Assembly (NCBI GenBank): GCA_003649445.1
Contig: QMRV01000003.1
Span: 1-64,000, forward strand
Length of the DNA: 64,000 nt
Reading direction: 5' to 3'
Origin: Thermoprotei archaeon
GTDB taxonomy: Archaea > Thermoproteota > Thermoprotei > Thermofilales > B15-G2
A program made the translations under genes and the position numbers. The notes under the pieces are model-generated. The model worked only from the letters and a program-made list of their open reading frames with translations, was not told the origin of the DNA and did no database searches. Below, piece by piece: positions 14,351 through 19,002 of the stretch. The first letter of the stretch is position 1; the number at the start of each line of letters is the position of its first letter.

Positions 14351-14539
14351 ATGGTCAAAGGAACAACCTCATTTGGTAAAAAGAGCAAAGGAAAAACCCA
14401 TATAAGATGTAGAAGATGCGGAAGACACGCATACCACGTGAGAAAGAAATACTGTGCAGCTTGCGGCTTTGGTCGATCTAAAAGAATGCGCAGATATTCG
14501 TGGCAAAACAAGAAATACAACAGAGTTAGGTTAGTATAG
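14351..14539 (+). CDS. rpl37e: 50S ribosomal protein L37e
   Basis: 62 residues with the L37e zinc ribbon ([20 protein letters not shown]) and a very basic tail ending in the [11 protein letters not shown] type signature. It is a large-subunit protein. Its GGTGA ribosome site is inside the LSm 3' end, so translation is coupled. The 3' end overlaps the convergent riboflavin kinase gene by 9 bases. Confidence 0.97.
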
Positions 14540-15208
14540 TCCTAAGTAAACCTTTACTACTACCGGATCTCCGTCTTTAATATTGAGGACTTTCCTAATA
14601 CACAGGGGGGCTATTATCTCGATTATCTCAGGCCCATGATGTGTTCTCTCTATAAGAATTAATGCTCCTTTAACTTTATCATTTACTATAGCATAAAAGC
14701 ACTTGGCTCCTCCGTATTTTCTCTTACCATTATAGTGTTCACTTATCTTTATTCCGCTAATATAATTCAAAATATTTTTTCTTTTTATACTATCACTATC
14801 TAGTTTAACATTAAAGGTCCCCGGATAAGGCTCAAATCCTAATTTTTCTTTAAACTGCTTATAGTAGAAGGGTAATGAGACGTAGTAGGCTCCTTCACCT
14901 AATCCTGATACAGCAGTGCCTCTCAGTATTACTACTTCATTAATTTTCTCGAAAATTTTCTTAAACTTTAAATAGTAGCTATAAAGTAAACTTAAACCTT
15001 TTTCACTTATCATAATATATGTTCCCTCAATGGATTTTCTTCTAATAATTAAGTTTTCTTGCTCTAACTCTATTAACTTACGAGACGCAGACTGCTGAGA
15101 ACATTTGATATACTTAGCTAGCTCACTAGTGCTTATTTTTACCGGAGAAAAAATTCCTCCCTTTAGCGATATTTTCATCAATATGTACACTTTCTCGTGC
15201 TCCTTCAC
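14531..15208 (-). CDS. ribK: CTP-dependent riboflavin kinase with N-terminal winged helix
   Basis: 225 residues. Residues 1-90 are a winged helix ([22 protein letters not shown]), and about 92-225 are the archaeal RibK (DUF120) barrel with [18 protein letters not shown], the [11 protein letters not shown] substrate loop and [10 protein letters not shown]. It phosphorylates riboflavin to FMN using CTP. The fused DNA-binding domain suggests it also regulates flavin genes. GTG 15208 overlaps the DUF99 stop (GTGA), so the two are translated together. Confidence 0.93.
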
Positions 15209-15834
15209 AGCAGTCTCCCCCTACTACAACACACATACTTATTAATGCTTCTAGCAATCATTTTTGCCACCTTAATTGGCTCTGGATGCTTTCCCTCTAC
15301 AGTAAATTTATTAACTAAATGCATGCATTCTCTAAAGTCAACACCAAAATATCTCACATAGACTATATGTCCTGTTCTAAGAGGTAATGGTACTCGTTTT
15401 CCATTTTTCCTGTAAACTTCTACTCTTTCTTTCCAGTCCGGAAAATTCTTTCTAATTATTTCCTCTAATCCTTTTGATTCTCTGTAGGTTACTGATATTA
15501 CAGGAATTTTTACTGAGTTAAATACTTCGCTCAAATCTATTATGTTGTAGTAGCTTATAATTACACCATTTATTAAAATAAAGTTAATGTCATTTCTCCC
15601 AGTATTGTAATACATTCTTATAACAGCTTTCGTAGAATCCATTCCTCCTACAGTTACTCTCTCTATGTAGACTCCATCTATTAGAAAGTCACTTCTCATA
15701 ACTACTCCAACTAATACTGCATATTTGTTCTCTTTTCTAAAGCTTTCAGCTATTCCAAGACACCGTATAGCTTTTTTATATACGTTTATTTTCCTAAATT
15801 TACTGGTATTTTCATGTATATTCTTTTCAGCCAT
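15205..15834 (-). CDS. DUF99 family protein
   Basis: 209 residues with DUF99 signatures: an early GIAESF, GVVMRSDFLIDGV, a central DINFILINGVIIS, PVISVTYRESKGLEE, and HPEPIKVAKMIARS at the end. The family is related in fold to endonuclease V, but its biochemical role is not established. It is the first gene of a coupled pair with ribK. ATG 15834 is used. Confidence 0.85.
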   Translation of the reverse strand: MAEKNIHENTSKFRKINVYKKAIRCLGIAESFRKENKYAVLVGVVMRSDFLIDGVYIERVTVGGMDSTKAVIRMYYNTGRNDINFILINGVIISYYNIIDLSEVFNSVKIPVISVTYRESKGLEEIIRKNFPDWKERVEVYRKNGKRVPLPLRTGHIVYVRYFGVDFRECMHLVNKFTVEGKHPEPIKVAKMIARSINKYVCCSRGRLL

Positions 15835-15844
15835 CCTTGCTTTA

Positions 15845-16384
15845 TTATGAGTAAATACTTCTTAATATATTAGCTCCTTCTTCACCGATTTCAACTATAT
15901 TTTTTACGTTTCTAAAAAGTATTTTCATATAAAGGCTTTTATATGAGTACTCTTTATTACTGATAGGCTGAAATACAATACTTCTATTAAAATGAATTTT
16001 AAATAATGATAATAATTCATTTAGCCACGAAATACATTTATTTAAATTATAGTTAATTATACTTGATTTATATACTATATCAATATCAGAAACTATTATT
16101 AAATATTTTTTTAACATATGTTTTAGCGAGGTTAATGTGTGAACTAGTACCAGTAATTTGAGTAAATCATCTACAACTATAATAGATCCTTTATTCTTAT
16201 TCTTACTTAAAATATTTTCAAAAACATCAAATAGAGGTGAAATAATTAAGAAATTTTCTGCAGTATTGTTTATGTATTTTAGAAAGGAGTTTACTACAGA
16301 CTTTCGTAAATTCACATCATATAGTAGTAGGCTAGGACCTTTTTCCACCAGTATTTTTCTCAAAGCACTTTCTTTATCTTGCAT
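15845..16384 (-). CDS. Unknown 179-residue alpha/beta protein
   Basis: No family recognised. Hydrophobic strands at LLLYDV, NFLIISPLF, GSIIVVDDLL and KYLIIVSDIDIV look like the core of a RecA/KaiC-type alpha/beta fold with a Walker-B-like VVDDLL, but no Walker A loop is present. It starts 11 bases inside the upstream membrane-protein gene and ends 11 bases before DUF99, so it is part of the minus-strand operon with the RNR-like protein. Confidence 0.6.
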   Translation of the reverse strand: MQDKESALRKILVEKGPSLLLYDVNLRKSVVNSFLKYINNTAENFLIISPLFDVFENILSKNKNKGSIIVVDDLLKLLVLVHTLTSLKHMLKKYLIIVSDIDIVYKSSIINYNLNKCISWLNELLSLFKIHFNRSIVFQPISNKEYSYKSLYMKILFRNVKNIVEIGEEGANILRSIYS

Positions 16385-16730
16385 ATATTTTTAGATAATA
16401 TAGATAGCTTAACATTAGAAATGTTATTAGTAGAAGCAGCACCGATAATCCAGCCATTTTTAAAGACTCTTCAGTTTTCTTTTTTAACGCTGAATACATG
16501 TAAACTATGCTGAATGCCCCAAATATATAAGAAATTGCAGTAACTATGACTTCTGTTAAAGACTGATACAAATTGTGTTGTATGATAAATGCCTGAAGCT
16601 CTCTCGGCGATGCTACAACAAGAGCGTATAAGATTCCTCCTAAAAGTAGTGCTGCAACGAAAATTATTACATAGGACAAAAATTTCGGTTCAAGCAGAGC
16701 TTCAAGATATCTTTTAGCAGTACCGATCAT
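16374..16730 (-). CDS. Small membrane protein, three to four helices
   Basis: 118 residues from ATG 16730; ATG 16736 lies too close to its GAGGG site. Membrane segments are YVIIFVAALLLGGILYALVV, IVTAISYIFGAFSIVYMY and MAGLSVLLLLITFLMLSYLYYL. No family or function is recognised. It lies between the RNR-like regulator (26 bases upstream) and the unknown 179-residue protein (overlapping). Confidence 0.7.
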   Translation of the reverse strand: MIGTAKRYLEALLEPKFLSYVIIFVAALLLGGILYALVVASPRELQAFIIQHNLYQSLTEVIVTAISYIFGAFSIVYMYSALKKKTEESLKMAGLSVLLLLITFLMLSYLYYLKIYAR

Positions 16731-16761
16731 CTGCATTCCCTCGTCTATTTTAATTCCGATA

Positions 16762-19002
16762 CTATATATTTTTTCGGCTCAAGTATTCATCTCGATAGAA
16801 GCTGTGAACATAGGTTATTGGCTCATACACCGAAAAAACTCTAGAAAAGTGAGCTCCCATTGGTATCATTGCTAAACATTTTGGACAAAATTGATGAAAA
16901 CCATCTAGGATTATTCGGCATCGTGGACAATAAGTATAGTCCAGAGATAACATTAAGGGCCTCTCGTATTTAAGCAAGTAGTCTAGCAGAGTAACTAAGT
17001 CGTCTTTAGTGAAGTATATAGGATCTACCCGTAGAAAAACTCCTCCTTTAAGTTCTCTAAATGGTTCGCTATGATAAATCTTTAAGTATTCTTCGAGTGA
17101 CCCCGCTATATTGTAGGGCATCAATGTTAGTGGAGAGAAATATTGCTCTAGATTTTTTATTGGAATGTTCTTTTTTCTTAGTACGTTTCTAATAATACTG
17201 ACTACTCTTACAAAGTTTCTATCGTTACACATAAAAGAAAACTCTACTGTATACTCTTCGTTTTTAACAGCATCTCTAAATACCTTGATCAGTTCTTTTA
17301 CTAGTTTTCTAGCAGTTGATATGATGTGATCTTTGTTATCGTTACCCGCTAGCAAAAAGGCTGTAAAGTATACTCCTATAAAGGAAATTAAATAACGCGA
17401 ATATTCCCACCTATAGTAATAGTCTCCTTTAAGTATATACTCTGTTAACGGTTTTAGCCTTCTTTTAGCTACAATATCTTTAATAAAGCTATGTTTGCTG
17501 TTAAATGCCAGCGCCACAGAATCTGCTACGTTATATATTTTGTCAAAAAACTTTTCTTCCGTATGACTTTCAAGCATTATTAAAGGCAAATTAACAGCAA
17601 TAGAGGAAATTATCCCGTAAGCTGGCAGAATCGGTACTTCCTTAGGTTTTTCGAGCTGTATACCTTCACTAGAAGTAGAAACATAGTTTTCTTCCTTAAC
17701 AAGTGTTATTGGAACTCTTGATGCAAGCGCCTTATATATAGTACTTAGAAGATCATCATCCCTTAGGACTCTGTCATTTACTTTGAGCACTACTATGGGA
17801 GTTTTTGAAGGATACTTGCTATTAACATTTGCTAAAACATTCAACAATGTTTTTGCTAATAGTAGCGCTTCATCCATGTAGTCTACAAAGGAGAATAAAC
17901 CTGTATTTTTGTATTTAATCTTAATATCTTCGTATTCTTTAGGTAAAGAAAACGCACAAGCTAGTGCTACGGGTCTATAGTTTCTATAACTTAAGTTATT
18001 TATGTTGAGTATTTTAGTAAAATAGAGTAATTCCAATGATACTTTGTCTTGATCACCTTTACTTATAAAAGGTGACAAAATAAAATTAAAGTTGTCTATG
18101 ATTTGAGAAATATAATAATAATCTTTAAAATAATTTAATGTAATATACATTGAGAAAAGAGCCTCTCTAAAGTTTTTCGGAGCAGGTATGATTATCTCGG
18201 GAAAAAATTTATTTCCCATAAAATTTTCTTTCGACAAACATAGACATAAATCATGTCTAATGTCTTCAACCCCAATAAACCAATCACTGCTGTTCGCTAT
18301 GTGTATATATCCGTTTAAATGCGCAACAAGAACACTAGGAGGTATTAGCTGAGACATTGTATAAGCCTCGATTATCGACCTCCCAAGTATTCTTAGCAAA
18401 ACATTGGGAGTGTAAGGTCTTACTAAATCATAAGATTCAAATATATTTTTTACATCGTAGACAGGTAAACCGTATCTACTATATTTCTTTATATATTCTT
18501 CACATCCTTTCTCAAGTAGCGTAGCAATTACTAGTTCTCTTATTAAGTTTGTTGAAACATAGCGTAGATTTGCATTCTTAAGTTTCTCCTCTACATCAAC
18601 TGCTACTTCCTTAGCCAGCGACCTTTTGATACCAGTCTCTCTGACTAGACTATCTATTATTTTATTTTTATCAAAGTACTCCATTACATATTTTGATGTC
18701 GAAACAAGCATGTCTCTACTTTGTAGAGCAAGATAAGACTCCCTAAATTCTTTAAATAAATCAAATATCTTAAATCCTAGATCAGTTAATCTATATTTTC
18801 CTGTATTTCTATCTATTTCTATTATTCTATTGTCTACTAATTGTCTTAAATGATAACCAAATTTTCCACTTTTATCTCTTGCGATACCGATCTTCTGCAT
18901 TAATTCGCCATAAGATAACTCTCCTTCATTATATAATAGTTTAATTATTTGCATTCTAACTTCATTACCTATAATTCTCAATATTTTTACTATATCCTGC
19001 AC
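16762..19002 (-). CDS. Winged helix, ATP-cone and NrdD-like domains in one protein; probable nucleotide-sensing regulator
   Basis: 746 residues. Residues 1-75 are an ArsR-like winged helix (NEVRMQIIKLLYNEGELSYGEL). About 95-185 resemble an ATP-cone (VMEYFDKNKIIDSLVRETG, then VRPYTPN). From about 200 the chain follows anaerobic ribonucleotide reductase, with VLVAHLNGYIHIAN. The C-terminus keeps the two zinc pairs C692-PR-C695 and C706-PK-C709 and then reads RVFSVY (721-726) where NrdD has R-V-x-G-Y: the glycyl radical Gly appears to be Ser724. The protein is thus probably not a reductase. An inferred role is sensing ATP/dATP and acting on DNA. Start is GTG 19002 after GAGGGGGG. Confidence 0.75.
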   Translation of the reverse strand: MQDIVKILRIIGNEVRMQIIKLLYNEGELSYGELMQKIGIARDKSGKFGYHLRQLVDNRIIEIDRNTGKYRLTDLGFKIFDLFKEFRESYLALQSRDMLVSTSKYVMEYFDKNKIIDSLVRETGIKRSLAKEVAVDVEEKLKNANLRYVSTNLIRELVIATLLEKGCEEYIKKYSRYGLPVYDVKNIFESYDLVRPYTPNVLLRILGRSIIEAYTMSQLIPPSVLVAHLNGYIHIANSSDWFIGVEDIRHDLCLCLSKENFMGNKFFPEIIIPAPKNFREALFSMYITLNYFKDYYYISQIIDNFNFILSPFISKGDQDKVSLELLYFTKILNINNLSYRNYRPVALACAFSLPKEYEDIKIKYKNTGLFSFVDYMDEALLLAKTLLNVLANVNSKYPSKTPIVVLKVNDRVLRDDDLLSTIYKALASRVPITLVKEENYVSTSSEGIQLEKPKEVPILPAYGIISSIAVNLPLIMLESHTEEKFFDKIYNVADSVALAFNSKHSFIKDIVAKRRLKPLTEYILKGDYYYRWEYSRYLISFIGVYFTAFLLAGNDNKDHIISTARKLVKELIKVFRDAVKNEEYTVEFSFMCNDRNFVRVVSIIRNVLRKKNIPIKNLEQYFSPLTLMPYNIAGSLEEYLKIYHSEPFRELKGGVFLRVDPIYFTKDDLVTLLDYLLKYERPLMLSLDYTYCPRCRIILDGFHQFCPKCLAMIPMGAHFSRVFSVYEPITYVHSFYRDEYLSRKNI

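Follow-up and report, generated by a model that had tools for sequence, protein, structure and literature searches.

A probable transcription regulator built from a dead class III ribonucleotide reductase in an archaeon

The window, the whole 64,000-nt stretch of archaeal DNA analysed here, carries on its minus strand a gene that starts with GTG at 19002 and stops at 16762 (Table 1); plus-strand frame 1 is full of stops, and a previous sequence-only reading had the coordinates right, the strand being minus. The encoded protein shows three Pfam domains in linear arrangement, each scoring above cut-off: a DUF7347 winged helix (E 2.2e-11), an ATP-cone (E 2.5e-9, 38 bits against a cut-off of 25.8) and an NRDD region (E 1e-18). 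The N-terminal winged helix and the relationship to NrdD and ATP-cone proteins, both proposed in the sequence-only reading, are thus confirmed by profile search. The HTH_5 profile stays below its cut-off (15.3 bits against 22), and the structural match of the winged helix to BigR is weak (Foldseek, 30% identity over 94 alignment columns, E 8e-3). Structure prediction places the ten-stranded NrdD barrel in the window protein, and this fold is retained in the predicted structures. TIGR00244 (NrdR) is absent among the families listed for the protein, the N-terminus being a winged helix and not a Zn ribbon. With winged helix-turn-helix (wHTH), ATP-cone and NrdD region in this order, and the catalytic motifs absent, the window protein has the combination by which we define the pseudo-NrdD family.

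The same reading had set the gene in an operon with a small membrane protein and a further protein; the neighbours stand in identical order at L001, a locus of Thermoprotei archaeon B40_G2 encoding a protein 53% identical to the window protein. No above-cut-off Pfam family was found for the 120-residue membrane protein or for the 179-residue protein, the latter being kept in L001 between the small membrane protein and Endo_dU. Apart from the window gene itself, no ribonucleotide reductase (RNR) gene was matched within the 64-kb window.

Table 1. Positions of the pseudo-NrdD gene, its domains and key codons, and its neighbours in the window.
Feature	Position	Strand	Basis
wHTH - ATP-cone - pseudo-NrdD gene, 746 aa, GTG start	16762..19002	-	ORF, Pfam, structure match
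Winged helix-turn-helix domain, residues 8-80, DUF7347, ArsR-like	18763..18981	-	Pfam; BigR chains among Foldseek matches
ATP-cone domain, residues 100-177	18472..18705	-	Pfam 38 bits, cut-off 25.8
NrdD-like barrel region (predicted fold), residues 196-744	16771..18417	-	Pfam NRDD
Ile448 codon, position of thiyl-radical Cys	17659..17661	-	Alignment
Zinc-ribbon segment, Cys 692, 695, 706, 709	16876..16929	-	Sequence and alignment
Ser724 codon, position of radical Gly	16831..16833	-	Sequence and alignment
120-aa membrane protein, gene 2 of putative operon	16374..16736	-	Order kept in L001
179-aa protein, gene 3 of putative operon	15845..16384	-	Order kept in L001
Endo_dU (endonuclease dU family), gene 4 of putative operon	15205..15834	-	Pfam E 1.2e-57
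CTP-dependent riboflavin kinase, HTH-like N-terminus, gene 5 of putative operon	14531..15208	-	Pfam E 2.5e-41

A protein search at E <=1e-5 gave 27 relatives, and in one of these the identity to the window protein reaches 98%; a second search with the alignment as query added just two proteins. Single-sequence search of genome contigs found no relatives, and an alignment-based search of one genome per species gave 227 loci, of which the best 80, mostly from Bathyarchaeia and Methanomethylicia, were analysed; B40_G2 contributes two, L001 and L052. At E <=1e-5 the window protein is matched in 210 of 300 genomes from the phylum of L001's genome, which we take to be Thermoproteota in GTDB, this count being an upper bound because canonical NrdD matches too (best 2.8e-21, in a different search space); about 178 of the 300 match at E <=1e-24, by hand count of the listing. 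The protein of Nitrosopumilus sp. K4 (L131) is matched in 57 of the 61 genomes of its taxonomic family at E <=1e-100. Names supplied by the sources for part of the proteins are helix-turn-helix protein, ArsR family regulator and, often, (anaerobic) ribonucleoside-triphosphate reductase; what is often annotated as an anaerobic reductase in the aerobic ammonia oxidisers, L131 and its relatives, belongs to the pseudo-NrdD family. A separate canonical NrdD is present in 21 of 24 family-bearing genomes searched, with a partial, N-masked match in one more and none in two.

The alignment comprises 77 family rows, namely the window protein and 76 of the best 80 of the 227 loci (L016, L037, L042 and L063, being truncated or masked, were left out), 15 further members hand-picked from the matches of the 300-genome search (eight AOA-like, six crenarchaeal-type, one other) and 22 canonical NrdDs from the 21 genomes with a separate canonical gene. 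Catalytic roles were assigned after the available text of PMC11226230 and PMC12662201. The RVxGY motif, the CC pair of the catalytic loop and the NxN flap are each present in all 22 canonical sequences and in none of the 77 and 15 family rows, and the second His of HxHD, likewise invariant in canonical NrdD, survives in 4/77 and 0/15. In the window protein the HxHD position reads HIAN, Ile448 replaces the thiyl-radical Cys of the finger loop, and RVFSVY, with Ser724 at the radical site, was found as the sequence-only reading had described it. In the C-terminal alignment the radical-Gly column, Gly in 22/22 canonical NrdDs, is Ser in the window protein and Thr in L001, and the last 90 residues hold no R[VI]xG[YF] by which a Gly elsewhere could align with this site. 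Across the family 13 of 77 rows, the window protein not among them, have Cys in the thiyl column, but this column holds another letter in 12/22 canonical rows through local misalignment and the CC-pair count is therefore the safer measure; any Cys within the loop region is found in 27/77. Gly stands in the radical column in 9/10 Methanomethylicia rows, in all ten of which the thiyl column is Ser, and in 2/64 Bathyarchaeia rows. No family row combines a loop Cys with the radical Gly, and at the radical site the eight AOA-like rows are gapped throughout.

The zinc pairs CPRC (692-695) and CPKC (706-709) are where the sequence-only reading had placed them, and each of the four Cys is present in 77/77 family rows; the second ligand is His or Glu in 10/22 canonical rows. 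Gln225 and Glu293 of the StNrdD specificity site are not conserved in the family, nor in all canonical rows, so we draw no conclusion about it. Profile search, fold prediction and these residue counts together back the earlier view of an RNR paralogue that is without the chemistry and has an added winged helix. Judged by its sequence, an ATP-cone-NrdD protein has gained an ArsR-like winged helix, and the glycyl radical, the thiyl Cys, the flap and part of the substrate-phosphate motif are gone; the zinc ribbon and the predicted barrel are kept after the loss of chemistry. A pseudogene was considered and rejected: the frame is open, and L001 is intact in the identical gene order.

In many relatives the family gene is followed by an RNR gene, which belongs to class III in some Bathyarchaeia and, in Nitrosopumilus-like genomes, to class II. 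Ten of the best 80 of the 227 loci have canonical nrdD as the first RNR gene after the family gene, read in the same direction and 188-898 nt away; at least 1.5 kb of downstream sequence is available for 59 of these 80, including all ten with nrdD, and 49 of the 70 loci where nrdD is not next downstream fall in this group. L142 has a family gene and then nrdD, as in the tandem loci. Class II nrdJ is the next RNR gene downstream in 8/8 chosen AOA-like loci, and a second AOA-like draw, with four places common to both, found it downstream in 29 of 30 loci, the thirtieth being a contig end. Each of the eight AOA-like genomes has one class II RNR, the family gene's neighbour, which in L140 has its own ATP-cone according to Pfam; no other NrdD was found there above cut-off, with one weak match below cut-off in G129. 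Two Hecatellales loci among the best 80 have an nrdJ match starting 1.2 and 1.6 kb downstream, and in the six crenarchaeal-type loci no RNR gene is nearby, a class II RNR being encoded elsewhere. Of 39 family-bearing genomes, seven have an NrdR scoring above cut-off (nine match at E 0.001), and for six of these seven NrdR genes an RSMCCRL-type nrdD is no more than 0.4 kb away. In those six genomes the family gene is elsewhere or, as in G005, beside a second nrdD; the family member is therefore not the sole candidate regulator there, and NrdR is the nearer candidate for the RSMCCRL-type nrdD. A glutaredoxin-family gene lies directly upstream of canonical nrdD at L043:12450-12755, in the gap between regulator and nrdD, and at L092:841-1101, and its product is perhaps the electron donor of NrdD. 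A glutaredoxin gene also comes before the unlinked nrdD of B40_G2.

Candidate operators were found in two groups of relatives. In Bathyarchaeia a 20-bp imperfect palindrome, TACTYTAAWTTTTTAAACTA, overlaps a TATA-like stretch; it was spotted by eye, written as a pattern from eight loci that were later counted, and then tested. Allowing at most two mismatches there are 14 matches in the best 80 of the 227 loci (1.10 Mb), against 0-1 for eight shuffled patterns and none for the reversed pattern. Eleven of the 14 precede the assigned regulator start by 53-108 nt, some of these starts being internal (L002, L004, L016, L019, L022, L024, L028, L043, L044, L063 and L064, with L016, L024, L028, L063 and L064 not used in writing the pattern), two lie 160-161 nt before nrdD (L048, L059) and one is elsewhere (L057). 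At the same stringency, among 16 whole genomes, the 12 chosen for the site have one match each, always the known site, and G014, G016, G020 and G021 have none, with two matches for the reversed control across all 16; in 24 more family-bearing genomes there are four matches, of which one precedes the regulator (G019, L064) and three are at other places, the reversed control giving three. In sum 13 of 16 matches in 40 genomes are at regulator or nrdD promoters, 12 of the 40 having been chosen for the site, and the site is missing from most loci and most of these genomes. At the ten tandem loci, the regulator promoter and the gap that separates regulator from nrdD have no words in common longer than the maximum in shuffles.

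In the Nitrosopumilus type, GATC occurs 21 times in 8 x 220 nt before the regulator, with none in L136 or L141, against 19 times in 7504 nt of other intergenic sequence. A double TGATCYAA has 14 matches in five genomes, eight of which fall in the 300 nt that precede the regulator (2/3, 5/5, 1/2, 0/2 and 0/2 by genome, matches that are not independent because the genomes are related), and the reversed control has four matches, their places not given. By eye, the nrdD promoters of five Methanomethylicia loci (L091, L094, L095, L096 and L099) have in common a CACTCWAAAAA-like stretch just before a TATA-like box, TACTCTAAAAA in one of them, which may be a related regulatory site.

Within this family the window protein represents a divergent paralogue. 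Its subfamily was found in two lineages with the identical five-gene order, and the pair it forms with L001 sits on a long branch (1.84). Besides the window type, B40_G2 encodes a more standard family member, a class II RNR and canonical NrdD, so that the window type is the second of two family copies in that genome. Of 80 columns conserved at 95% or more in the other 75 rows, 22 are altered in both window-type rows (3/13 in the winged helix, 7/28 in the cone, 12/39 in the barrel). Among the altered positions are Arg101, Asn159 and Arg171 of the cone, invariant in the 75 other rows and replaced in both of these, and the window protein has lost Arg474, Glu546 and Asp604 of the barrel. Because of the long branch and the loss of the three cone residues, its cone may not bind nucleotide. 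The upstream regions of L001 and of the window gene were searched for inverted repeats and shared words, and no common operator was found; the longest word present in both is a purine-rich stretch at the start codon.

Our preferred reading, to which we give a probability of about 75%, is that the window protein regulates transcription as a one-component system derived from a class III reductase that has lost its activity, and that it probably senses the levels of DNA building blocks and controls genes. Control of RNR genes by part of the family is supported by the gene neighbours and operator searches in relatives. In such a mechanism the barrel would dimerise in NrdD fashion and place two winged helices onto the palindrome, and ATP or dATP in the cone would alter the dimer and with it the grip on DNA, so that RNR expression comes under feedback; the overlap of the 20-bp candidate site with the TATA-like stretch suggests that this would be repression. 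The window protein probably acts likewise at a different target, which may be the operon that it shares with the Endo_dU gene, though for this protein we infer both the nucleotide sensing and the target. It is possible, if doubtful, that the family regulates RNR genes and the window paralogue has ceased to sense nucleotides, binding DNA of its own operon with a different tuning. The lost cone and barrel residues, the lack of an RNR neighbour in the window and a different operon, kept in L001, fit this; against it, the ATP-cone still scores above the Pfam cut-off and the entire architecture is preserved at 53% identity.

Adjacency to RNR genes would fit a subunit as well as a regulator, and the models retain the barrel fold, so that the dead NrdD could pair with a live NrdD, or NrdJ, and tune the enzyme, with the winged helix as a protein-protein module. 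We consider this unlikely, since the family is also found beside class II nrdJ where there is no other above-cut-off NrdD match, the palindrome is concentrated at the family gene's own promoter, which fits DNA binding, and the winged helix is near-identical in the eight AOA-like rows. An active enzyme was rejected, the flap being gone in 92/92 rows and the loop Cys and radical Gly never occurring together. A working but unusual reductase, or another radical enzyme with a different radical site, could be read from the retained barrel and zinc ribbon, the Gly of the Methanomethylicia and the Cys in 13 thiyl positions; it is highly improbable, as these two residues share no single row, the second His of HxHD is also missing in 88/92, the AOA-like radical site is reduced to gaps, and canonical RNRs are encoded alongside in most genomes searched.

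Returning to regulation by a dead reductase, we think it rather likely that across much of Thermoproteota a gutted class III enzyme, which would be a copy of the allosteric apparatus stripped of its chemistry and fitted with a DNA-binding head, controls RNR genes of two classes, so that homologous sensors set both expression and activity. In aerobic ammonia oxidisers, whose annotations often misname it an anaerobic reductase, it would have persisted after the class III enzyme was lost, and in NrdR-less genomes it would fill the role of bacterial NrdR. The full-text literature searched, with most subscription papers outside its scope, yielded no description of how NrdR-less archaea control the DNA-precursor route, nor, in titles and abstract openings, of a wHTH-ATP-cone-pseudo-NrdD protein. 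For such archaea, including the abundant Nitrosopumilus, the family offers a specific answer with candidate operators; if true, it is a rare reuse of an essential enzyme's allosteric core as a transcription factor of its own pathway. The misannotation credits aerobic archaea with an oxygen-sensitive reductase.

Enzyme folds reused as ligand sensors together with a winged helix are familiar from NrtR and MocR-type regulators, and the full-text literature, most subscription papers again outside scope, yielded no RNR-derived regulator of this kind. The RNR fold has also been reused after loss of catalysis in the dead large subunits of beta-herpesviruses, which differ from the pseudo-NrdD family in being class I-like, acting on host signalling and having no DNA-binding domain. 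The window protein shares with class III NrdD the predicted barrel fold and the C-terminal four-ligand zinc site, but the family lacks the radical Gly, the thiyl Cys, the NxN flap and a full HxHD, and has the winged helix added. To ArsR/SmtB repressors such as BigR its winged helix bears the weak resemblance given above, whereas its sensor would be cone plus reductase barrel. NrdR, as described in the available part of PMC9110341, is a bacterial Zn-ribbon-ATP-cone repressor of RNR genes that is rare in archaea; the family resembles it in joining an ATP-cone to a DNA-binding domain and in having RNR genes as its candidate target, but is archaeal, has an ArsR-like winged helix instead of the Zn ribbon and carries an entire dead NrdD barrel. 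One further NrdD-like protein of 707 residues (P0028) has a similar cone, no winged helix and, as read, no terminal RVxGY, and it sits on a long branch beside canonical NrdD.
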